Shown here: positions 7,712 to 23,719 of the stretch, piece by piece
Layout: every line of letters starts with the position of its first letter
How positions within the stretch are numbered: the first letter of the stretch is position 1
DNA from: a virus
Reading direction: 5' to 3' (one strand)
IMG/VR virus record: IMGVR_UViG_3300032092_000013
Span: 1-64,000 of that record
DNA: 64,000 bases
Notes under the pieces: generated by a model
The model's input: the letters and a program-made list of their open reading frames with translations, nothing else
What the model was told of the DNA's origin: nothing
Databases searched by the model: none
Translations under genes and position numbers: made by a program

Positions 7712-8542
7712 CTATATTGTGTCACAAAATTTTATAAAATTTTTTACTGTTTCTAATTCTTTTTCTTGTACTTGTTTAAAATTTTGCTCAACTAAATGAA
7801 GGGTTTCTTTAGCATGTTGAATTTCATCTATTCCATATGCTATTCCCATTTTTGTAGAGGGAAAATCATTGTGCCATTCAGCTGCGGTTTTATTTGTATT
7901 GGGCACTACTATTGATATGCAGCCACATAATGAAGCAATTACCGGCCAAAAGCAAGCATTATCATAACAATAAAAATATTCGACATTTTTTAAAATTACA
8001 GACATTCTTTGAAAGTCATTAGTAATGTTAGTCAAATCAATTGCATCTTGCGGATGCACTTTTTCTTTTATGCCACCTTTCTTTACTAAGAAAGCAGATC
8101 CTCTTCTAATTTCATTTCCCTTTCCAAAATAATTAGTATCTAAAAATGAACTTATCAATTTACCAGATAATTTATACCCTTCTCTAATTTTATAAAAATC
8201 TGAATAAGTAAAAAAATAATCTGTATTTTTTGATTTTTGGTAAAATTGATTTGCAAGCTCCTCACCTGAAGCTTCCGGTGTGTTTAACAACCATCTTATA
8301 ACATGTTTTGTACCAAAAGGATTTCCCACTACAACTTCCGGATAAATCCCGATAGTATTGTCTTTTTTAAAAGTAGCATTTGCAAAAAAAGGTGCATTTA
8401 ATGATGGATGTGTTTTAGGAGAAGTTATATATGCTTCTTCGCCCAAAGAATTTAAATCATGACATAATTTGTGCAAAGCGACACTACCACCACTATTATG
8501 CAAAAAAGCGCCCATGTATATAATATATTTTTTTTTATTCAT
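7712..8542 (-). CDS. Glycosyltransferase, GT4/GT-B-like
   Basis: Putative sugar transferase, last gene of the sugar locus. An N-terminal Rossmann half starts YIIYMGAFLHNSGGSVALHKLCHDL, the usual acceptor-side glycine-rich entry of GT4 enzymes. The C-terminal half has EYFYCYDNACFWPVIASLCGCISIVVPN, which has the layout of the donor-site 'E-x7-E' helix, although the acidic pair is replaced. With 276 residues it is short for GT4 (usually 350-400). Donor and acceptor are unknown; the adjacent Gmd/Fcl pair makes GDP-fucose the obvious candidate donor. It overlaps fcl by 8 bases. Confidence 0.65.
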   Translation of the reverse strand: MNKKKYIIYMGAFLHNSGGSVALHKLCHDLNSLGEEAYITSPKTHPSLNAPFFANATFKKDNTIGIYPEVVVGNPFGTKHVIRWLLNTPEASGEELANQFYQKSKNTDYFFTYSDFYKIREGYKLSGKLISSFLDTNYFGKGNEIRRGSAFLVKKGGIKEKVHPQDAIDLTNITNDFQRMSVILKNVEYFYCYDNACFWPVIASLCGCISIVVPNTNKTAAEWHNDFPSTKMGIAYGIDEIQHAKETLHLVEQNFKQVQEKELETVKNFIKFCDTI

Positions 8543-9449
8543 TAATTTTAGCTAAAAAGTCTTGATAAGCTTCTTTCAATCCTTCTTCAAAAGGAGTTTC
8601 TTCAAAAGACATAATGTTATTCAAAAGCGTGCAGTCAGTTTTCTTTCTTGGTGTTCCATCTAAGCTAGGATCTCCTGGAAGAATTTTACCTTCAAATCCA
8701 ACTACATTGCAAATTTTCTTTGTTAGTTCATATATGCTCAGTTCTGTATTGGAACCAGCATTAACAAGATTTGGGGGATTCTCAATTTCTAAAAGTTTAT
8801 AACAAATCTTAGCAAGATCGTCAGCATTCAAAAATTCTCTTAGAGGAGAACCACTTCCCCAAATTTGATATTCTATATGACCTCTTTCCTTAGCTTCATG
8901 AATCTTTCTGATCAAACCAGGAATAACATGAGAGTTCTCAGGATGATAGTTATCGTTCAAACCATATAGGTTGGTAGGCATTACAGAATGATAAATTACT
9001 CCGTATTGTTTACGATAGAATTCACAAAGTTTAATTCCAGCAATCTTAGCAATAGCATAAGCTTCATTAGTTGGTTCAAGACTGTCTGTAAGCAAGTATT
9101 CTTCCTTTAAAGGCTGAGGTGCAAACTTAGGATAAATGCATGTACTACCAAGAAACAATAATCTTTTAACGCCATGCTTATATGCGCTATTAATGATATT
9201 TGTTTGTATCATTAAATTATCATAAGCAAATTCAGCTGGATATGTATTGTTAGCTTTTATGCCTCCTACCTTTGCAGAACAAATAACAACCTTATCAGGT
9301 TTAGCAGCAGCAATAAAATCATCTACGTTTTGCTGATTACGCAAATCCAAGCTTTTTTTATCTATAACAATTGGATCATAATCTTTACAATGTCTTAACA
9401 TTGCTGAACCAACCATTCCTTTGTGACCAGCTATAAAAAGTTTATCCAT
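8535..9449 (-). CDS. fcl: GDP-L-fucose synthase
   Basis: Bifunctional 3,5-epimerase/4-reductase that converts GDP-4-keto-6-deoxy-D-mannose to GDP-L-fucose with NADPH. The extended SDR fold shows FIAGHKGMVGSAMLRH (NADP-binding glycine motif, 5-20), FLGSTCIYPKFAPQP (catalytic Ser), YAIAKIAG (YxxxK pair) and NLYGLNDNYHPENSHVIPGLI, all typical of WcaG/Fcl. The 304 residues agree with the family. It sits 1 base from gmd and works on its product. The AAAGGAAAG just upstream of the ATG is one of the few Shine-Dalgarno-like sequences in the window. Confidence 0.93.
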   Translation of the reverse strand: MDKLFIAGHKGMVGSAMLRHCKDYDPIVIDKKSLDLRNQQNVDDFIAAAKPDKVVICSAKVGGIKANNTYPAEFAYDNLMIQTNIINSAYKHGVKRLLFLGSTCIYPKFAPQPLKEEYLLTDSLEPTNEAYAIAKIAGIKLCEFYRKQYGVIYHSVMPTNLYGLNDNYHPENSHVIPGLIRKIHEAKERGHIEYQIWGSGSPLREFLNADDLAKICYKLLEIENPPNLVNAGSNTELSIYELTKKICNVVGFEGKILPGDPSLDGTPRKKTDCTLLNNIMSFEETPFEEGLKEAYQDFLAKINE

Positions 9450-9450
9450 A

Positions 9451-10473
9451 TTATCTTTCCTTTCTTGCTAATTCCCAATCAGCTTTAGTCATAATCTTCA
9501 CTAAATCATCAAACTTAACTTTAGGTTCCCATCCAAGCTTTTCTTTAGCTTTAGTTGCATCCCCAAGTAACAAATCTACTTCTGCTGGTCTGAAATACCT
9601 TGGATCAATTTTCACAAGAGCTTTTCCGGTCTTAGTATCAATGCCTTCTTCTTCTACATCTTCACCTCGAAACTCAATATCAATTCCAACTTCTTTAAAT
9701 GATTCTTTACAAAATCTTCTAATAGTATTTGTTTCTCCTGTAGCACAAACATAATCTTCAGGAGTATCCTGTTGCAGCATTCTCCACATCATGTCTGTGT
9801 ATTCTGGAGCATATCCCCAATCTCGTTTGGCATCTAAATTCCCAAGATACAAACAATCCTGCAAACCTTCTTTGATTCTTCCAACTGCTCTTGTAATTTT
9901 TCTTGATACAAAGGTTTCTCCTCTTCTAGGAGATTCGTGGTTAAATAATACTCCATTTGAAGCATGTATACCATAAGATTCCCTATAGTTAATAACACTC
10001 CAATAACCAAATAATTTTGCTACACCATATGGAGAACGAGGATAGAAAGGAGTTTTTTCTGTTTGAGGACACTCTTGAATTTTACCGTATAATTCAGAAG
10101 TTGATGCTTGATAGAATCTCGTTTTATCTTTTAGGCCAACTTCTTTGATTGCATCTAAAAATCTAAGAGTTCCTAATGCATCAACTTGAGCTGTATATTC
10201 TGGAATATCAAATGATACTCTTACGTGACTCTGTGCAGCTAAGTTATAAATTTCATCTGGACCAATTTGTTCAAGCAAACGGTTTACGTTAGAAGTATCT
10301 GTTACATCTCCATAGTGCAGTTTGAGGTCTTGGTAAATATGATCAATACGGGAGGTATTAAATGAAGAACTTCGTCGGACCATTCCATGCACTTGATACC
10401 CCTTATCTAAAAGCTGTTCAGCAAGATATGAACCGTCTTGTCCAGTAATACCTGTTATTAGGGCTTTCTTCAT
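9451..10473 (-). CDS. gmd: GDP-mannose 4,6-dehydratase
   Basis: Converts GDP-mannose to GDP-4-keto-6-deoxymannose, the first step to GDP-fucose, GDP-rhamnose or colitose. Diagnostic are [19 protein letters not shown] (8-12 start), [18 protein letters not shown], the catalytic [30 protein letters not shown] and [17 protein letters not shown]. Full length at 340 residues with all catalytic residues. The nucleotide sugar would come from host GDP-mannose; no guanylyltransferase is present here. Better conserved than the glycosyltransferases around it. Confidence 0.96.
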
Positions 10474-10521: not shown

Positions 10522-11343
10522 CTAAAATTTAATCAATTTAAAATTAGAAAAAACATTTTCTATTAAAATTTGAAAATGTAAAAAATAATCTTTCAAACAA
10601 CTATTTTTAACATATGGGTGTATAAGAATATGATTTGGATTTTTAGCCAATACAGAACCCAATATACCAAAACAAGAGGGGCAGCAAATATTATAATCAC
10701 TCAAAGTCATAAGACTTAATTGTATATAATTAATAAAATTTGCTCTTATTACCTCTCTGTCTTTAAAAAGGTATGTTAATTCGGATGAATTATTCACCCA
10801 TTCAAAATCATTCGATATGATCAATAATGTCACATCCTTAGGTATTTGTTCTAAAGCATTTTTATAATAATCCATATATGAATCCATATATATAGGATAA
10901 TCACCCCTTCTAAAGTTAACACAACACGTAGGCTTTCCTATTTTTTTTATAATGGAATTTGCAATTTCTAAAAATTTTGTTTTTATTTTAAAAATATTTT
11001 TAATCTCTGGTACAATATTTTTCCAATATACATAACCGTAATCAAAGCGCGCATTTAATATATAGTTGCAATTAGGATCAAGCTTTAAAATATTTTCCTC
11101 TATAACAGGTGAGTTGCAATATTGACTATTATATATTTGATAATCAACATTTTCGGGAAATGCGGAAAACGGTGTATCAAAACACTCTTCTACGACACCA
11201 AAAAATCTATTAGGCATTGTCGAAAATGCAACTTCGTGGCCTGTATGTTTTGATATAGCATACATGCAAAAATAATTAAAAGTTTGTGATCCCAACATCT
11301 CATTACAGCTAATGATATCATTTGTTATATAATGTTTATTCAT
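10522..11343 (-). CDS. Fucosyltransferase-like protein, GT11-like
   Basis: Resembles alpha-1,2-fucosyltransferases (GT11), which use GDP-fucose. CVNFRRGDYPIYM near residue 145 corresponds to the GDP-binding 'HxRRGDY' motif, here with Asn-Phe in place of His-Val. The late segment TLSDYNICCPSCFGILGSVLAKNP corresponds to the 'NSSFSWW' region, with Pro-Ser-Cys-Phe instead. A GT11-type role fits its place immediately before gmd and fcl. I start at the ATG at 11343 (273 residues); the frame also opens at a TTG at 11361 inside the upstream gene. Acceptor unknown. Confidence 0.65.
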   Translation of the reverse strand: MNKHYITNDIISCNEMLGSQTFNYFCMYAISKHTGHEVAFSTMPNRFFGVVEECFDTPFSAFPENVDYQIYNSQYCNSPVIEENILKLDPNCNYILNARFDYGYVYWKNIVPEIKNIFKIKTKFLEIANSIIKKIGKPTCCVNFRRGDYPIYMDSYMDYYKNALEQIPKDVTLLIISNDFEWVNNSSELTYLFKDREVIRANFINYIQLSLMTLSDYNICCPSCFGILGSVLAKNPNHILIHPYVKNSCLKDYFLHFQILIENVFSNFKLIKF

Positions 11344-12115
11344 ATAAATGTTTCGATACAATATCGATACCTTTTTCTAAACCAATAAAATTTATAAAAT
11401 TTTGATCAGTTGTATTTCCTGTATATGGAAAACCTAATTCAGTATTTTCTACATGAATATTTTTTTTATGATCTATTTTATAAAGATTGCATATGTATTT
11501 GGCGATATCATATAATGTATATTTTTTGATATAAGTACATTCAAATAGTTTATATGAAAATTCATTTTTTATATAGCAATCAACTATACTTAGTAGATCT
11601 TGCATATAAAAAAAATCAAAAAATTTATTTTGATATATATTTATATATTCATTTTTTTTACATTTTTGAATGCTTGATTTAATGAATCTCGTATCTAATT
11701 CATTTTCATCAAACAATCCAAATATTCTTAAATTATAAAAATTATTTTGTTCTATTATAGATTTGTTGATAATTCGTTTACTCAGACCGTATGGTGACTC
11801 GGGTGCTGTGATTTCTGCTCCAGAACCAAAATGGATTAATTTTCCGAATTTATTTCTATTGTTAAGTAAATTATAGTACATTCGAAGATTATTATCCATA
11901 TCCGAATATGTATCTGTTGTTAGCCTACTACCACCACTAACAGCGGTATGTATTATAATATCAAAATATTTTCCATGAAAGTAATTTGCTGTTTCGTGAG
12001 AATTACTCAAATCAAAATTTTGTCTCTTTACAGAAATTACATTATATTTTTTCTTTAAATTATTAAATAAAGAATTCCCAATATAACCACCGCCTCCAGT
12101 AATCAATATTTTCAT
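11336..12115 (-). CDS. NAD(P)-dependent sugar epimerase/reductase (extended SDR)
   Basis: Nucleotide-sugar SDR with ILITGGGGYIGNSLFNNL (3-20, glycine-rich NAD site), HTAVSGGS, HFGSGAEI and the YGLSKRI catalytic YxxxK. At 259 residues it is shorter than full epimerases and looks like a 4-ketoreductase. In yersiniose-type pathways a reductase of this class acts right after the thiamine-dependent chain-adding step. Here it directly follows the two thiamine-enzyme genes and overlaps the beta subunit by 4 bases, so that order of action is plausible but inferred. Confidence 0.75.
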   Translation of the reverse strand: MKILITGGGGYIGNSLFNNLKKKYNVISVKRQNFDLSNSHETANYFHGKYFDIIIHTAVSGGSRLTTDTYSDMDNNLRMYYNLLNNRNKFGKLIHFGSGAEITAPESPYGLSKRIINKSIIEQNNFYNLRIFGLFDENELDTRFIKSSIQKCKKNEYINIYQNKFFDFFYMQDLLSIVDCYIKNEFSYKLFECTYIKKYTLYDIAKYICNLYKIDHKKNIHVENTELGFPYTGNTTDQNFINFIGLEKGIDIVSKHLYE

Positions 12116-12648
12116 TTTGATTTACAAAAATCAGCAAATTCAACTAAAATTGTATTTTTACCATCAGTTCTGTTCAATGCCTTTATATATGAAGGAACAA
12201 TATCCTCTGATTCAATTAATTCAATAATTTCAGTATTTTTCGTCATATATCTAAATGCATCAGAAAAATTTCCTTTATGTTGACATTGGGGATCTACGGG
12301 TTGTTCGCTGCCTACTGCTACTCTTATAATGACCCGCGGTGTACATTTTCCATCAGACATTGAATTGAATTTATCTAAATGATTTACAATTTGATCAACA
12401 CCCATCAACAAAAAATTCCAACGAGGAAAAGTTGATATAGGAATTAGTCCTTCAATTGCCATGCCATTGGCTAAACCACATTGCAAATATTCTGCAACAG
12501 GTAATTCAATTTTTTTATTTGTGGGTAAATGTTTTAATGAATCATAAAGTCCTGTGCCTTCAAACTCAACAGCTTGGCCAATAAAAAAAGTTTTTGGATG
12601 TTCGGCTAATAAAGACATAGCCTTTTTTATTTCTTCAAAATATTTCAT
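12112..12648 (-). CDS. Thiamine-diphosphate enzyme, beta (pyrimidine-binding) subunit, PDH-E1-beta-like
   Basis: The 178 residues cover only the transketolase-type pyrimidine domain: FFIGQAVEFEGTG with the conserved Glu, ELPVAEYLQCGLANGMAIEGLIPISTF (E1-beta 'P-x-x-E' helix), MGVDQIVNHLDKF, and a C-terminal VPSYIKALN segment. Pyruvate-dehydrogenase E1 beta is about 325 residues, so the transketolase C-terminal domain is missing. It pairs with the alpha-like gene 3 bases upstream. Known relatives in sugar pathways (avilamycin AviB1/AviB2) add two-carbon branches to keto-sugars, which is the proposed role here. Confidence 0.75.
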   Translation of the reverse strand: MKYFEEIKKAMSLLAEHPKTFFIGQAVEFEGTGLYDSLKHLPTNKKIELPVAEYLQCGLANGMAIEGLIPISTFPRWNFLLMGVDQIVNHLDKFNSMSDGKCTPRVIIRVAVGSEQPVDPQCQHKGNFSDAFRYMTKNTEIIELIESEDIVPSYIKALNRTDGKNTILVEFADFCKSK

Positions 12649-12651
12649 ATA

Positions 12652-13281
12652 TTAAAATTGTACTCTTTTGCCTGCGCCTGCATGTGGATATTTTTTATTA
12701 TCATATTGATAATAAATTAAATTTTCTTGTTTGTATATACCCCCAGTATATTCCGAATTTAAATAATATGGCATTTCTCTTTTCCAAACTTCTGGCGTCG
12801 GTGTACAAACAGATTTTTTATTATCTTCCACGATAAAAGTAATTGGTAATTTATGATTTACACTGTATTTGTACGCCTCATGAAAAGCACCAGTTTCTGC
12901 ACTCATGTCACCGACCCAACACCAAACCTTATTAGTTTTATTTTGTAATTTTATCGACATTGCGATACCAGCTGCAATAGAAGGTATACCCCCCACAATT
13001 GAACTACAAATAAATTTATATTCTGGCAAATTCATAATCATAGACTTACCATTTATTATTTTTTCTTTCAAGAGACTGCTGGGTATACCTTTTAATAACG
13101 CTTGATAATGGTTTCTCCATGTACAACATACCCAATCATTTTCAGTATCTATATCAGCAAAAATTGATAGCATTATGTCTTCATTGCCGTGATAGAGGTG
13201 AATAGGGGCTTTGATTTCGCCTTGATTAAAAATATCTCCTATTTCCGTTTCAAAATTTATAAGTGTTTCTTTTGTTACCAT
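12652..13281 (-). CDS. Thiamine-diphosphate enzyme, alpha (TPP-binding) subunit, PDH-E1-alpha-like
   Basis: Carries the diphosphate-binding domain. WCWVGDMSAETGAFHEAYKY near 120-140 aligns with the 'GDGA-x-x-QG-x-x-xEA' motif, with Met for the last Gly and Glu-Thr for Asn-Gln. It continues to NHKLPITFIVEDN, the end of the motif. Upstream, WRNHYQALLKGIPSS matches the 'RGH-x-x-x-L-x-x-G' region of E1 alpha. It is 209 residues against about 360, so both subunits are minimal. The substrate is probably pyruvate or another 2-oxo acid, inferred from the family. It lies just downstream of an RmlB-like gene and overlaps it by 7 bases. Confidence 0.75.
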   Translation of the reverse strand: MVTKETLINFETEIGDIFNQGEIKAPIHLYHGNEDIMLSIFADIDTENDWVCCTWRNHYQALLKGIPSSLLKEKIINGKSMIMNLPEYKFICSSIVGGIPSIAAGIAMSIKLQNKTNKVWCWVGDMSAETGAFHEAYKYSVNHKLPITFIVEDNKKSVCTPTPEVWKREMPYYLNSEYTGGIYKQENLIYYQYDNKKYPHAGAGKRVQF

Positions 13282-14222
13282 ATAAAATTATTTTTATAAT
13301 AATTTGTAATTTTTGTTAATTCGTCATCAAAATTTGCTGCCGGCTTCCAACCTAGATTTCTTAATTTATCATCATTTAATGCATATCTCAAATCTTGACC
13401 TTCTCTATTATAGCTAAAATCAATATACTTTTCAATATCATTAATGCCATAACAATTTAATATTTTTTTGAAGGTTTCAAGATTACTTTGCTCATATCCG
13501 CCACAAATGTTGTATATTTCATTTTTAACATTATTGTCAATTATTGTCATAATACCAGATGCTGTGTCTTTTGCATGTAACCAATTTCGAATTGGACTAC
13601 CATTGTTATGTAATGGCATTTTTTTATTCAAATTTATATATTTGCATGCTTTTGGAATTAGTTTTTCAACATATTGGCCTATGCCATAATTATTAGTGGG
13701 CCTGACAATTACATAAGGTATATTAAAAGTTCTAGACCATGCCAAAATTAACATGTCGGCTGCTGCCTTTGTAGCTGAATAAGGATTGCTTGGTTTTAAT
13801 ATATCTGTTTCTATGTGTTCACCTTCGATTATATCACCATATACTTCATCTGTACTAAAATGCAGCAATGTTGGTTTTTTATTTGTTTCTTGTCGATAAT
13901 TTTTTATTAATTCTAATAATTTATAAACACCATCTATATTTGAATGAATGAATTCTTGACTATCGGTAATTGAATTACCTACATGAGTTTCTGCTGCAGT
14001 ATTTATTACATAATCACATTCATATAAAAATTTTAAATCATTGATATCACAGTGCAAAAAAGAAAAATTAGAATATTGATTAAATTCATCTAGCAATTTT
14101 TTATTAGATGCGTATGTCATTTTGTCTACTCCTTTAACGTACCAACCACGTAGTAAACATTCTCTTGTTACATAAGATCCTATAAATCCTAAACATCCTG
14201 TTACATATACTATTTTTTTCAT
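13275..14222 (-). CDS. Nucleotide-sugar 4,6-dehydratase, RmlB-like (first copy)
   Basis: Extended SDR that would make a 4-keto-6-deoxy sugar nucleotide. Seen: YVTGCLGFIGSYVTREC (NAD site), NTAAETHVGNSI, HFSTDEVYGD (catalytic Thr-Asp-Glu), PYSATKAAADML (YxxxK) and RPTNNYGIGQYVEKLIPKA. It is more divergent than the copy at 20094-21029 (GCLGF for GGYGF) and may act on a CDP- or other NDP-sugar, supplying the E1-type dehydratase two genes upstream. I chose the ATG at 14222, which overlaps the previous gene by 4 bases, over a TTG at 14234; this gives 315 residues. Confidence 0.85.
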   Translation of the reverse strand: MKKIVYVTGCLGFIGSYVTRECLLRGWYVKGVDKMTYASNKKLLDEFNQYSNFSFLHCDINDLKFLYECDYVINTAAETHVGNSITDSQEFIHSNIDGVYKLLELIKNYRQETNKKPTLLHFSTDEVYGDIIEGEHIETDILKPSNPYSATKAAADMLILAWSRTFNIPYVIVRPTNNYGIGQYVEKLIPKACKYINLNKKMPLHNNGSPIRNWLHAKDTASGIMTIIDNNVKNEIYNICGGYEQSNLETFKKILNCYGINDIEKYIDFSYNREGQDLRYALNDDKLRNLGWKPAANFDDELTKITNYYKNNFIW

Positions 14223-14893
14223 AAATTTGGCCAATATTCTTTTATTAAATTTACACGTTCAGATGCAGAAGTACCTGTTAAATGAACTAAAAAGGATTCA
14301 GGTGTCCACGGATCTACAATACCTGTGCGATTATTATCTTCTCTCCAGGTTTTAGTATTAATTAAACAAGATGGCACACTGTTTAAAAATTTATGAGGCA
14401 ATATATTAAACATGTGTTTATATTCTGGTAAATTGGAGTAAATGTAGTTTAAGGTGCCTTGCTCTTGTAAAATATCATTTAACCAAAAACGAGATATTTG
14501 CAAAAACATATCAAATAACTTTTGTGTATCATCATTTCTTGATACTATGAAATTACCCGTACTAAAAGTAGTATAATGCATCCAATCATATGATGCTGTA
14601 ACACAACTTTTTTCATTTACAAAATCACTAATTTTATAATTTGGATTGGTAATTAATGCATCAGCATCAATCCACATAATATGTTCATATTGTCTTAATA
14701 ATTTGAAGCATGTAGTTGCTCTCAAAAATCCAATATGCCTGGAATCAAAACCACATTTTTTGTCTGCTGAAAATGACCTTAAACACATAAAATCATAACC
14801 ATGGTTAAACGCATATTTCTGTTTCGAAGAAACAGATAAGTCTAAAACTTCATGCATACTTGAATCTGAGCCAGTAACTATCAATGTTTTCAT
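14219..14893 (-). CDS. Glycosyltransferase, GT34 (GMA12/MNN10)-like
   Basis: GT-A fold transferase. The DxD metal and nucleotide-sugar site is in HIMWIDADALITNPN near residue 75. Downstream are FSTGNFIVSRND (the GT34 'NtG-x-f-l-i-r' motif), EQGTLNYI (catalytic acidic region) and FLVHLTG near the C-terminus. Length 224 fits bacterial short forms. It would transfer hexosyl residues; donor and acceptor are not evident. It starts 1 base from the E1-type dehydratase. Confidence 0.7.
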   Translation of the reverse strand: MKTLIVTGSDSSMHEVLDLSVSSKQKYAFNHGYDFMCLRSFSADKKCGFDSRHIGFLRATTCFKLLRQYEHIMWIDADALITNPNYKISDFVNEKSCVTASYDWMHYTTFSTGNFIVSRNDDTQKLFDMFLQISRFWLNDILQEQGTLNYIYSNLPEYKHMFNILPHKFLNSVPSCLINTKTWREDNNRTGIVDPWTPESFLVHLTGTSASERVNLIKEYWPNL

Positions 14894-16213
14894 CTATTTT
14901 TTAAAAAAAATATTTACAATATTTTCAATATAATCAATTTGTTCGTCAGTAATTACAGGACTTGTACCTAAAAAGAAAGTATCCGTAGTAACTTTTCTGG
15001 CATTAGGAAAGTTTTTAATAACATCCTCAGCTGCTATTAATCCTTCATAAGCTGGTTGTAACATAATGTTACCTGCAAAATAAGGTCTGGTTTGTATTTT
15101 ATTACTTTCTAAATAATTGACAATATCAAATCTTTTAAACGGGGCATTGTCTTTTATAGTAAGAGCAAAAGCAAACCAACTAGGATCGCTTAATTCTGTA
15201 GCTTTCGGCAAAACAAAAAATTCTTCATGTGGTTTAAAAATTTCAACTAAACGTTGATGATTATGCTTTCTTCTTTTGGTAATTTCTGGAAGCTTTTTAA
15301 GTTGCTCTAACCCCATAGCAGCTTGTAGTTCAATTGGTTTTAAATTATAACCAATCTCATCATATACGTATTTATGATCAAATACTTCGTCCGGCAATGA
15401 AGGTAACCAATTAGAAAATCTTTTACCACAACTTCCATTTTTAAGTAAATTAGCTTTTAAACCAGTACAAAAACAACCTCTACCCCATTCTCTAAAACTG
15501 CGAGCAACAGTTTCTTGATGCTTTGTGTTACATGCAACAAAGCCACCTTCTCCCATGGTAATGTGATGGGCAGGGTAAAAGGAACAACTTGCAAATTCAC
15601 CAAAACTTCCTAACAATTTACCATTATAAGAAGAACCTAATGCATCACAACAATCTTCAAGTAGTACTAAATTATAATTTTTTACTATTTGCATTAGTTG
15701 ATTCATATTAGGAGGATTTCCTAATACATGAGCAAACGTAATAACTTTAGCTCCTTTTTTAGCTTGCTCTTCTACTTGTTCTAAATTTAGATTAAGTGTA
15801 TCTAAATCAATATCAACAAAAGCCGGTTCAAACCCACATTGAAAAATGGGGTTAATTGTAGTAGGAAATCCGGCAATTGGAGTAATAACTTTAGTTCCTT
15901 TAGGAAAATTATACAACCTTTTTGAAGTCAGGGAAGACATCATTATTAAATTTGAACTACTACCGCTGTTAGTAAGAATACCGTATTCTTTTCCTACTTC
16001 TTTAGGGAAAACATTTTCAAAAGAAAGTCCTTTTGACCCCAAAACTAACCAACCTTCTAATAAAGTTTCTATGGAAGAAATATATTCATTTTCATCAAAA
16101 TATGGCCCAGCATATTGGACCCAGTCTTTTCCTGGTATCCACGGTTTTTCTAGGGTTTTTTGATTGATTAATTCTTTAATTAAAGAGAAAATTTGAGTTT
16201 TTTTATTTTGCAT
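14894..16213 (-). CDS. rfbH: E1/RfbH-type 3-dehydratase (PMP and [2Fe-2S] dependent)
   Basis: Removes the C-3 hydroxyl of a 4-keto-6-deoxy sugar nucleotide to give 3,6-dideoxy sugars. The DegT/DnrJ fold is clear, but the PLP-binding Lys is replaced: the site reads SFYPAHHITMGEGG with His216-His217, as in E1 (CDP-6-deoxy-xylo-4-hexulose 3-dehydratase) and ColD. Cysteines 189, 247 and 249 have the E1 spacing C-x57-C-x-C exactly; the fourth, Cys262 in GSCGKRF, is 12 residues on instead of 7. The 439 residues match E1 (437), not ColD (about 390). The partner reductase E3 is not in the window, so a host flavoprotein or ferredoxin may serve. Confidence 0.87.
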   Translation of the reverse strand: MQNKKTQIFSLIKELINQKTLEKPWIPGKDWVQYAGPYFDENEYISSIETLLEGWLVLGSKGLSFENVFPKEVGKEYGILTNSGSSSNLIMMSSLTSKRLYNFPKGTKVITPIAGFPTTINPIFQCGFEPAFVDIDLDTLNLNLEQVEEQAKKGAKVITFAHVLGNPPNMNQLMQIVKNYNLVLLEDCCDALGSSYNGKLLGSFGEFASCSFYPAHHITMGEGGFVACNTKHQETVARSFREWGRGCFCTGLKANLLKNGSCGKRFSNWLPSLPDEVFDHKYVYDEIGYNLKPIELQAAMGLEQLKKLPEITKRRKHNHQRLVEIFKPHEEFFVLPKATELSDPSWFAFALTIKDNAPFKRFDIVNYLESNKIQTRPYFAGNIMLQPAYEGLIAAEDVIKNFPNARKVTTDTFFLGTSPVITDEQIDYIENIVNIFFKK

Positions 16214-20093: not shown

Positions 20094-21029
20094 TTATTTT
20101 ATATAAAAATCAATAGTCTTCTTGAGCCCAGTTTCAAAAGATGTTTTAGGTAACCAACCCAATTCATTATTGATTTTTGAAAAGTCAATAGCATATCTGA
20201 AGTCGTGTCCTTTTCGGTCTTCTACAAACTCAATATATTCTTCATGATCTTTGCCTAATAATTTACAAATCGCTTTTGCGATTTGTAAATTATTCATTTC
20301 GCAATCACCACCTACATTATAAGTATCTCCGGATTTTCCTTTTAAAAGTATCTTCCAAATAGCTTCACAATGATCTTCTACATACAACCAATCACGAACA
20401 TTTTGACCAGTACCGTAAATTGGAATTTTTTTATTTTGATTTAAATTAGTAATAATTTTCGGAATTAATTTTTCTGTGTGTTGATTGGGTCCATAATTAT
20501 TGGAACAATTGCTAATTGTAGTATTCAATCCGTAGGTATGATGATAGGCGTTTACTAAGTGATCTGAAGCAGCTTTTGATGCTGAATACGGTGACCGTGG
20601 ATTGTAAGGTGTAGATTCTTTAAAAAAACCTATAGGTCCTAATGATCCATATACTTCATCTGTTGATACATGATGAAATCTTTCTAATTTACCATATTGT
20701 TTTGCGGCTTCTAGAAGAGAAAATGTACCGTTAATATTGGTATTAATAAAGGTCTCTGGTCCATTAATGCTATTGTCCACATGACTTTCAGCTGCAAAGT
20801 GAACAATATGTGTGATATTAAAATTGCATAAATGATTGAATATTAAATGTTGTCTATTGATAGATAATTCTAAATTTTTTATTTTTGTGTTAAAAATAAT
20901 ATTTGTCCTGTTTGCAGCATATGTAATTGAATCAATATTCAAAATCTGTTCTACTTCATCTTTTTTAGCGATAAAATTAATAAAATTACTGCCAATAAAA
21001 CCATATCCACCTGTAACTAAAATGTTCAT
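20094..21029 (-). CDS. rmlB: dTDP-glucose 4,6-dehydratase
   Basis: Near-canonical RmlB: ILVTGGYGFIGSNFINFI (NAD site), HFAAESHVDNSINGP, HVSTDEVYGSLG (catalytic Thr-Asp-Glu), RSPYSASKAASDHLV (YxxxK), NNYGPNQHTEKLIPK and a C-terminal FVEDRKGHDFRYAIDFSKI. 311 residues. It makes dTDP-4-keto-6-deoxyglucose from dTDP-glucose. RmlA, C and D are not here, so the activated sugar must be host-supplied and the product goes elsewhere than the usual rhamnose path. First gene of the sugar locus on the minus strand; it diverges from the next gene over 32 bases. Confidence 0.93.
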   Translation of the reverse strand: MNILVTGGYGFIGSNFINFIAKKDEVEQILNIDSITYAANRTNIIFNTKIKNLELSINRQHLIFNHLCNFNITHIVHFAAESHVDNSINGPETFINTNINGTFSLLEAAKQYGKLERFHHVSTDEVYGSLGPIGFFKESTPYNPRSPYSASKAASDHLVNAYHHTYGLNTTISNCSNNYGPNQHTEKLIPKIITNLNQNKKIPIYGTGQNVRDWLYVEDHCEAIWKILLKGKSGDTYNVGGDCEMNNLQIAKAICKLLGKDHEEYIEFVEDRKGHDFRYAIDFSKINNELGWLPKTSFETGLKKTIDFYIK

Positions 21030-22966: not shown

Positions 22967-23719
22967 TTAAACTTTAAGAGCTTTATTCCAAAGTACTAAA
23001 TGTAGTCTGGGTGAAAAATTAACATTCCATTGCCTAGCCCATTCAGCTACTTGTGTCGCTTTCTCGGTATGTTCTTCTCGAGAACCACAACAGGGCATAA
23101 ACCAAATATCTTTATTATCTAAAAATAATTTATTGATATATTTTTCAACAATTTCATCAATATCATCCTCGGATTGAACCACAAATTTAAAAGATGAACG
23201 ATTGCTATTCTTATGCCACTTTAGAGCATCAAGATTATATCGCTTCTTCTCTGGATCACCGTTAGAAGATAATTTTGGTGATACAGTAAATGTCGCACCT
23301 AGATCTAACCATTCATCTGATGGTACTAATGTACCATTTGTTTCAAAATCAATTTTTGGAATAAATCCATTTTTTAATTCAAAATAACTAATAAATTTTA
23401 ATAATTTCTTTTCTTGTAAGAAAGGTTCTCCTCCAGTAAGCTTAAGAATAGCTCCAGCTTTTAATCTCTCGATAAAGCCATTATCAAGCATATATTGATC
23501 AATCTCTTTAAATGCCATCTTGTTCTTAACAGACCAAGAAACAAATGAATCACATCCATGCGGCGAATCAGGAGATGCAAATCCTTTACAAGTAAGATTA
23601 CACATTGATAAACGTAAGAATACAGAAGGCATGCCAACATACTTACCTTCTCCTTCTAACGTATAAAAGAGTTTATCATCAGAGATAAACATAGTTTCAT
23701 TATCATCTAAATTATCCAT
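22967..23719 (-). CDS. queE: 7-carboxy-7-deazaguanine synthase (radical SAM)
   Basis: Turns 6-carboxytetrahydropterin into CDG, third step towards preQ0. FYTLEGEGKYVGMPSVFLRL (18-37) is the QueE signature before the cluster loop. The cluster cysteines are C40-x3-C44-x11-C56 (C-N-L-T-C-K-G-F ... GCDSF); the usual C-x3-C-x2-C has an 11-residue insertion, as seen in QueE variants with an extended loop. LTGGEPFLQE supplies the SAM-binding GGEP. 250 residues. It begins the minus-strand unit queE-nudix-kinase and diverges from phoH over 49 bases. Confidence 0.9.
   Translation of the reverse strand: MDNLDDNETMFISDDKLFYTLEGEGKYVGMPSVFLRLSMCNLTCKGFASPDSPHGCDSFVSWSVKNKMAFKEIDQYMLDNGFIERLKAGAILKLTGGEPFLQEKKLLKFISYFELKNGFIPKIDFETNGTLVPSDEWLDLGATFTVSPKLSSNGDPEKKRYNLDALKWHKNSNRSSFKFVVQSEDDIDEIVEKYINKLFLDNKDIWFMPCCGSREEHTEKATQVAEWARQWNVNFSPRLHLVLWNKALKV

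Follow-up and report, generated by a model that had tools for sequence, protein, structure and literature searches.

What sugar does a phage make when a thiamine diphosphate (ThDP) enzyme lies among its genes for deoxygenating nucleotide sugars? The question arises from IMG/VR virus record IMGVR_UViG_3300032092_000013, of which positions 1 to 64,000 were analysed (64,000 nucleotides, hereafter the window). The window belongs to a 98.6 kb viral record with genes for a T4-like DNA polymerase, helicases, a primase, a terminase and tail-collar proteins, and carries on its minus strand a glycan cluster spanning ~7.7–21 kb. Within that cluster, an initial annotation made from the sequence alone had proposed a phage-encoded route to a branched 3,6-dideoxy sugar, a kind of sugar known from a few O-antigens and antibiotics. 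We consider it quite probable that the cassette in question makes an activated C-4-branched 3,6-dideoxyhexose; the most likely product is a nucleoside diphosphate (NDP)-3,6-dideoxy-4-C-acetyl, and then hydroxyethyl, hexose (yersiniose-like), built from pyruvate.

The cassette and its enzymes

The annotated genes do sit together (11336–16213), intact and all on the minus strand, with open reading frames (ORFs) that overlap or almost touch. In order of transcription they are:

14894..16213, minus strand: E1/RfbH-type pyridoxamine phosphate-dependent NDP-4-keto-6-deoxyhexose 3-dehydratase, 439 aa (NCBIfam, 3bcx alignment, motif survey)
14219..14893, minus strand: GT34-like glycosyltransferase, 224 aa (Pfam Glyco_transf_34, 51 bits)
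13275..14234, minus strand: RmlB-like NDP-hexose 4,6-dehydratase, 319 aa, TTG start as called (TIGR01181, 300 bits)
12652..13281, minus strand: TPPa, minimal PP-domain ThDP subunit, 209 aa (Pfam E1_dh, alignment, AlphaFold)
12112..12648, minus strand: TPPb, minimal PYR-domain subunit, 178 aa (pyruvate dehydrogenase (PDH)-E1-beta models, human E1 beta alignment, fold)
11336..12115, minus strand: short RmlD-like short-chain dehydrogenase/reductase (SDR), 259 aa (Epimerase/RmlD matches)

We infer the following order of substrates. The RmlB-like enzyme would convert host NDP-glucose to NDP-4-keto-6-deoxyhexose, from which E1, with electrons from a host ferredoxin- or flavodoxin-type reductase, would strip the hydroxyl at C3, yielding NDP-4-keto-3,6-dideoxyhexose. 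TPPa/TPPb would then decarboxylate pyruvate, the presumed donor, and add a two-carbon acyl group to the ketone at C4, the presumed branch position, so that C4 becomes a tertiary alcohol bearing an acetyl group. Reduction of the ketone in that branch by the SDR would yield a hydroxyethyl side chain, as in yersiniose, and a glycosyltransferase of the cluster would attach the product to a surface glycan of the phage or its host. The contig yielded no NTP_transferase match, and we therefore assume that the host supplies the NDP-sugar.

The product of 14894–16213 scores 463 bits against the NCBIfam RfbH equivalog NF011936 (cut-off 423), and its best solved relative is Yersinia E1 (3bcx, E=4e-103). 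Both carry the motif FYPAHHIT, the first His of which is H220 of E1, where aminotransferases have Lys; the K-variant 3bb8 reads FYPAKHIT at the same site. The RfbH score and this alignment bear out an E1/RfbH-type dehydratase with His for Lys and rule out a plain aminotransferase. His for Lys together with four cysteines marks the E1/SpnQ class, whose members depend on a reductase, while ColD lacks the cluster; SpnQ, of the same class as E1, runs on ferredoxin or flavodoxin systems (PMC8987622). The [2Fe-2S] cysteines of the window enzyme are C189, C247, C249 and C262. The annotation had given C189-x57-C247-x-C249 as exactly the arrangement of E1, which is correct for these three; the fourth is spaced x12 against x7 in E1, a longer loop that the motif survey found to be general among viral relatives. 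Elsewhere, in the numbered contigs (L) retrieved for comparison, one cassette contains an LdpA-like protein with 4Fe-4S domains that could donate electrons to E1 (L093 13501–14658). Others encode a His-type 3-dehydratase of ~380 aa, closest to E1 and without cluster cysteines (L009 4999–6141, L027 3862–5007, L046 5903–7045), possibly an Fe-S-free, ColD-like derivative of E1.

The 4,6-dehydratase at 13275–14234 is RmlB-like, as annotated, its TIGR01181 score lying under the RmlB cut-off of 365 bits and the CDP-glucose 4,6-dehydratase model TIGR02622 reaching only 75 bits. It represents a virus-cassette subfamily conserved alongside E1, the ThDP enzyme and the SDR. The short reductase is likewise present next to the thiamine pair, with 4 nt shared between its start and the TPPb end, and is proposed to be the ketoreductase of the branched sugar. 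It evolves fastest among the core genes, which is consistent with adaptation to different branches. Used directly as a query against viral contigs, the window SDR retrieved only two, because the protein evolves so fast; its homologues in viral contigs were instead retrieved by hidden Markov model (HMM).

The split PDH-E1-like thiamine enzyme is confirmed. TPPa matches Pfam E1_dh (59 bits) and keeps H58, G124-D125 and N154 as invariants in an alignment of relatives, with the C-terminal signature YPHAGAGxRVQF; TPPb matches PDH-E1-beta models and keeps the catalytic E53 and H124. The pair thus retains the residues by which PDH E1 binds ThDP and metal and carries out catalysis, and the AlphaFold models (predicted local distance difference test 90.6 for TPPa and 85.4 for TPPb) match the alpha and beta subunits, respectively, of the E1 of PDH and of branched-chain keto acid dehydrogenase (BCKDH). 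As a two-gene E1-type pair, the window enzyme differs from YerE, a single-chain ThDP flavoprotein of acetohydroxyacid synthase (AHAS)-like type.

The HMM placement called for in the annotation puts the pair in a discrete family, distinct from cellular PDH-type E1 alpha: members score 270–293 bits against the family model and other E1 alpha proteins at most 92. In the tree, window-type, E1-associated pairs form an all-viral group, apart from the bacterial pairs and from another set of viral pairs, mostly ones beside ColD-like enzymes. The closest relatives from genomes are 46–54% identical (Nitrospira, Verrucomicrobia, Pelagibacteraceae and others).

A component of a PDH complex is ruled out, as the contig has no lipoyl domain (no Biotin_lipoyl match, hence no lipoyl E2) and the 178-aa TPPb lacks the E1-beta C-terminal domain (no transketolase C domain match). 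Although PDH and BCKDH E1 are the closest characterised sequences, the same two absences, the position of the pair inside a glycan cluster and its separate clade make it very unlikely that we are dealing with a stripped 2-oxo-acid dehydrogenase or decarboxylase that aids host central metabolism during infection.

Three classes of thiamine enzyme interchange in one slot

The same gene set recurs in well over 100 viral loci, and all cassette genes are under purifying selection (pN/pS, the ratio of non-synonymous to synonymous polymorphism, ~0.1–0.3 for the core enzymes and ~0.5 for the SDR; synonymous sites are close to saturation); together these argue against a chance grouping. Counting all versions of the branch-making enzyme, related contigs from aquatic viruses that retain the set number in the hundreds. 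The catalytic residue of DegT-family enzymes near the pair was read from a profile alignment, with viral loci retrieved by RmlB as control. It was His in 74 and Lys in none of those near the viral pair, and His in 69 (mostly ColD-like) and Lys in three near the bacterial pair; the RmlB-anchored control gave eight His and nine Lys. His-type partners in viruses and bacteria alike link the pair to C3 deoxygenation through different types of dehydratase, among them the short His-type enzyme without cluster Cys (L009 and others), and tie it to 3-deoxysugar genes rather than to a 2-oxo-acid dehydrogenase complex.

In viral contigs the SDR is preceded by one of three enzymes: the minimal pair, one of AHAS/YerE-like type, or a split transketolase (TK). 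The gene in this slot often overlaps the SDR start by 4 nt. Viral E1 loci without the pair have a ~585-aa AHAS/YerE-like enzyme in this position, and L100 and L145, which first seemed exceptions, carry a split TK there. Among nonredundant viral E1 clusters, 58 had a ThDP enzyme and the SDR, 13 a ThDP enzyme only, seven neither and none the SDR alone; the corresponding figures for loci fetched by E1 alone were 31, 16, 18 and 0 (Fisher p ~5e-7), all in counts for which the TK class was recognised post hoc, flanks were incomplete in many contigs and related contigs were non-independent. Control RmlB clusters had the SDR in 0/80 and a ThDP enzyme in 1/80. Scans in the opposite direction, which started from the TK pair or the AHAS enzyme and so retrieved loci independently of SDR and E1, recovered the SDR and the RmlB-like gene at nearly every locus; most loci also had E1 or the short dehydratase. 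The exchange is seen between close relatives: in the sister contig L089 an AHAS-like enzyme replaces the pair, while identity to the window is 90% for E1, 92% for GDP-mannose 4,6-dehydratase, 90% for RmlB and 80% for the RmlB-like protein.

The cassette-family SDR occurs only with a ThDP enzyme, often overlapping its gene; three unrelated ThDP classes occupy one slot; and ThDP enzymes are almost absent from the RmlB controls. On these grounds it is improbable that the RmlB-like enzyme, E1 and the SDR make an unbranched 3,6-dideoxyhexose (paratose- or abequose-like) while the pair serves an unrelated step, even though E1 plus a reductase is a known route to such sugars (PMC8987622), the seven nonredundant E1 loci with neither partner have no ThDP enzyme in the flank covered, and the loci of L007 and S-H68 have E1, RmlB-like and SDR genes with no pair seen.

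Genes that may make alpha-keto acids, or their precursors, also separate the classes: in the interval up to the SDR they occur at 80/96 loci with the AHAS enzyme, 0/67 with the pair and 0/51 with the TK, where roles are taken from family names and the queries were drawn from AHAS loci, so that other kinds of donor gene in pair and TK slots would be missed. The kinds found are PanB, acetaldehyde dehydrogenase with a DmpG-type aldolase, HpcH/HpaI aldolases, NeuB-like proteins and dehydroquinate (DHQ)-synthase-like proteins. YerE-like enzymes accept C2–C8 keto acids and ErwE uses 4-hydroxy-2-oxo acids, alphaKADH2 enzymes are confined to C2 units taken from pyruvate, and for TKs a transfer of hydroxyacetyl has been proposed (PMC12247030). 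The distribution of donor genes fits this picture, and pyruvate is accordingly predicted as the donor of the window pair.

Candidate donor genes lie beside the ThDP gene in the AHAS/YerE-type cassettes at L089 10988–13421, L090 10596–13335, L093 12049–13496, L099 12480–13400, L135 10766–12684 and L103 12859–14367. In five contigs the AHAS-like enzyme is itself split into two adjacent ORFs of ~340 and 250 aa (L107 10243–11992, L119 7052–8811, L142 11130–12888, L149 10477–12221, L150 9320–11126). Five more (L127, L130, L133, L136, L152) have an E1 gene and, on the opposite strand, a bacterial-type set of ColD-like enzyme and minimal ThDP pair.

The three-way swap before the SDR, with likely donor genes in the AHAS version only, independently supports the branched 3,6-dideoxy route. 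DC (the superfamily of YerE), TK and alphaKADH2 are the ThDP superfamilies that accept ketones, and for them the addition of carbon units to ketones is established or has been proposed (PMC12247030). On balance we also lean, with less assurance, towards a wider interpretation, namely a modular factory maintained by aquatic viruses in which a fixed core of 4,6-dehydratase, 3-dehydratase and reductase can be combined with a ThDP carboligase from any one of three unrelated superfamilies. In this interpretation the AHAS version brings its own alpha-keto-acid-making genes, closely related phages equip surface glycans with chemically distinct C-branched 3,6-dideoxy sugars, and the E1-linked minimal pair is a virus-specific group.

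Known pathways, objections and significance

The nearest known system is the yersiniose pathway of Yersinia pseudotuberculosis VI (E1/E3, YerE and a reductase), which likewise combines E1-type C3 deoxygenation, ThDP carboligation and a reductase; many of the viral sister cassettes, with their AHAS/YerE-like enzyme, resemble it further. YerE acts on CDP-3,6-dideoxy-4-keto-glucose (PMC12247030). Yersinia has YerE, a CDP-glucose 4,6-dehydratase (RfbG) and E3, whereas the window has the minimal pair and an RmlB-like enzyme, with no E3 or nucleotidyltransferase found. The lack of an E3 and the RmlB-like, not CDP-glucose-type, 4,6-dehydratase mean that this is not simply the yersiniose pathway.

For the pair, the parallel lies in actinobacterial antibiotics. 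AviB1/AviB2, Pau11/Pau12 and KbDH, compared here by description, are two-subunit PDH-E1-like ThDP enzymes in deoxysugar clusters, and AviB1/B2 and Pau11/12 are proposed to form C4 acetyl branches (PMC4753412, PMC4425429); a predicted pyruvate donor and a C2 branch are common to them and the window pair. The latter differs in having an E1 3-dehydratase as partner and a phage glycan cluster as setting. A search of 297 actinomycete genomes for AviB1-like proteins gave two true members of the pair family; the other matches were E1 alpha-type proteins of ~24–31% identity, on loci too short for context.

The ColD colitose pathway and the bacterial minimal-pair loci share with the window a His-type 3-dehydratase, which in those loci stands next to a pair of the same family (the 46–54% identical relatives); the bacterial loci differ from the window in their ColD-like enzymes and in having GHMP kinase, nucleotidyltransferase and B12-radical-SAM neighbours. 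Cyanophages S-SM2 and P-TIM68 encode fused 'transketolase central region' proteins (phrog_34187) whose PP and PYR domains are homologous to those of the pair, at ~40% identity, but which form one ORF, in heptose-type clusters with no E1 nearby.

The annotator knew of no phage with this combination of enzymes. That stands for the isolate phages searched and fails for IMG/VR contigs, where it is common. Across 50,697 phage records no SDR homologue exceeded 26% identity, the best isolate match (26%) being from one pelagiphage whose neighbourhood has no ThDP annotation. E1 matches in isolate phages were at most 45% identical, from a few cyanophages and marine or uncultured viruses, with no pair seen nearby, and distant ThDP homologues occurred fused in the two cyanophages and split in uncultured 735 kb phage records. 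Literature searches returned nothing relevant on phage-encoded branched or 3,6-dideoxy sugars.

Several observations count against the branched-sugar pathway. No Fer2 domain, hence no E3, was found in the contig, which may be incomplete, and the window contig and 11 other viral records have no NAD_binding_1 domain, again indicating no E3; a host electron donor for E1 is inferred from these absences. The third residue of the pair's GDG motif is Met, and its subunits, at 209/178 aa, are smaller than those of known branching enzymes of the alphaKADH2 type (325/345 aa in Pau11/12). The pair and the AHAS-like enzyme are both present in some contigs, and the SDR could act on the ring 4-ketone instead. 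Finally, the fused relatives in S-SM2 and P-TIM68 adjoin heptose-type genes, with no E1, and 11/80 bacterial pair loci have no dehydratase in the flank covered; the wider ThDP family may therefore have other acceptors.

These last contexts bear on another explanation, in which the pair is a TK or acyl-transfer enzyme for a heptose, octose or other sugar-phosphate precursor and not a nucleotide-sugar carboligase. The bacterial homologues and the fused cyanophage forms do adjoin GHMP kinase, nucleotidyltransferase and phosphoheptose-isomerase-like (SIS) genes. The window cassette, however, has none of these three; the pair is of alphaKADH type in sequence and fold, not TK or DXS type; and a His-type, mostly ColD-like dehydratase is kept in 69/80 bacterial loci. 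We regard this explanation as unlikely, slightly more so than an unbranched product.

Should the cassette make a C-branched sugar as proposed, phages would vary their own or host surface glycans with specialised branched sugars, the branching chemistry being swapped between close relatives. A viral cassette with interchangeable ThDP carboligases would be a broader result, of more interest than the single window. The cassettes also provide material for evolutionary tests of ThDP enzymes that extend ketones by carbon units, a reaction of interest as a way to chiral tertiary alcohols; this material includes minimal pairs of ~390 residues as well as split TKs, a class for which activity on ketones is still unproven (PMC12247030).

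Neighbouring genes and other loci

Four further sugar genes flank the core:

8535–9449, minus strand: GDP-L-fucose synthase (NCBIfam Fcl, 407 bits)
9451–10473, minus strand: GDP-mannose 4,6-dehydratase (NCBIfam gmd, above cut-off)
10522..11361, minus strand: GT11-type (fucosyltransferase-like) glycosyltransferase (Pfam Glyco_transf_11), overlapping the end of the SDR gene
20094..21029, minus strand: true RmlB (dTDP-glucose 4,6-dehydratase), at the far end of the glycan cluster (TIGR01181 430 bits, above cut-off)

The GDP-fucose module (8535..10473) is a neighbouring second sugar, outside the branched-sugar core, and the GT11-type enzyme probably serves a fucose branch of the same glycan. The GT34-like enzyme, found in many viral cassettes and absent from others, is a candidate transferase of a product sugar.

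In the numbered series, L153–L232 contain a conserved bacterial cluster (e.g. L163 8013–13177, L176 10001–14857) from Nitrospira, Verrucomicrobia, Pelagibacter and others, with a minimal ThDP pair, a ColD-like dehydratase, a GHMP kinase, a nucleotidyltransferase, an SDR and a B12-binding radical SAM protein; a branched deoxyheptose is a possible product. In one 735 kb phage (L005 8388–10606, LR756501) a distant minimal ThDP pair has a radical SAM gene between its two genes, TPPb and TPPa, with genes resembling sugar C-methyltransferases close by. Elsewhere in the window, 22967–23719, judged by eye, resembles a QueE-type radical SAM enzyme of 7-deazaguanine synthesis and stands beside NUDIX-like and kinase-like genes.

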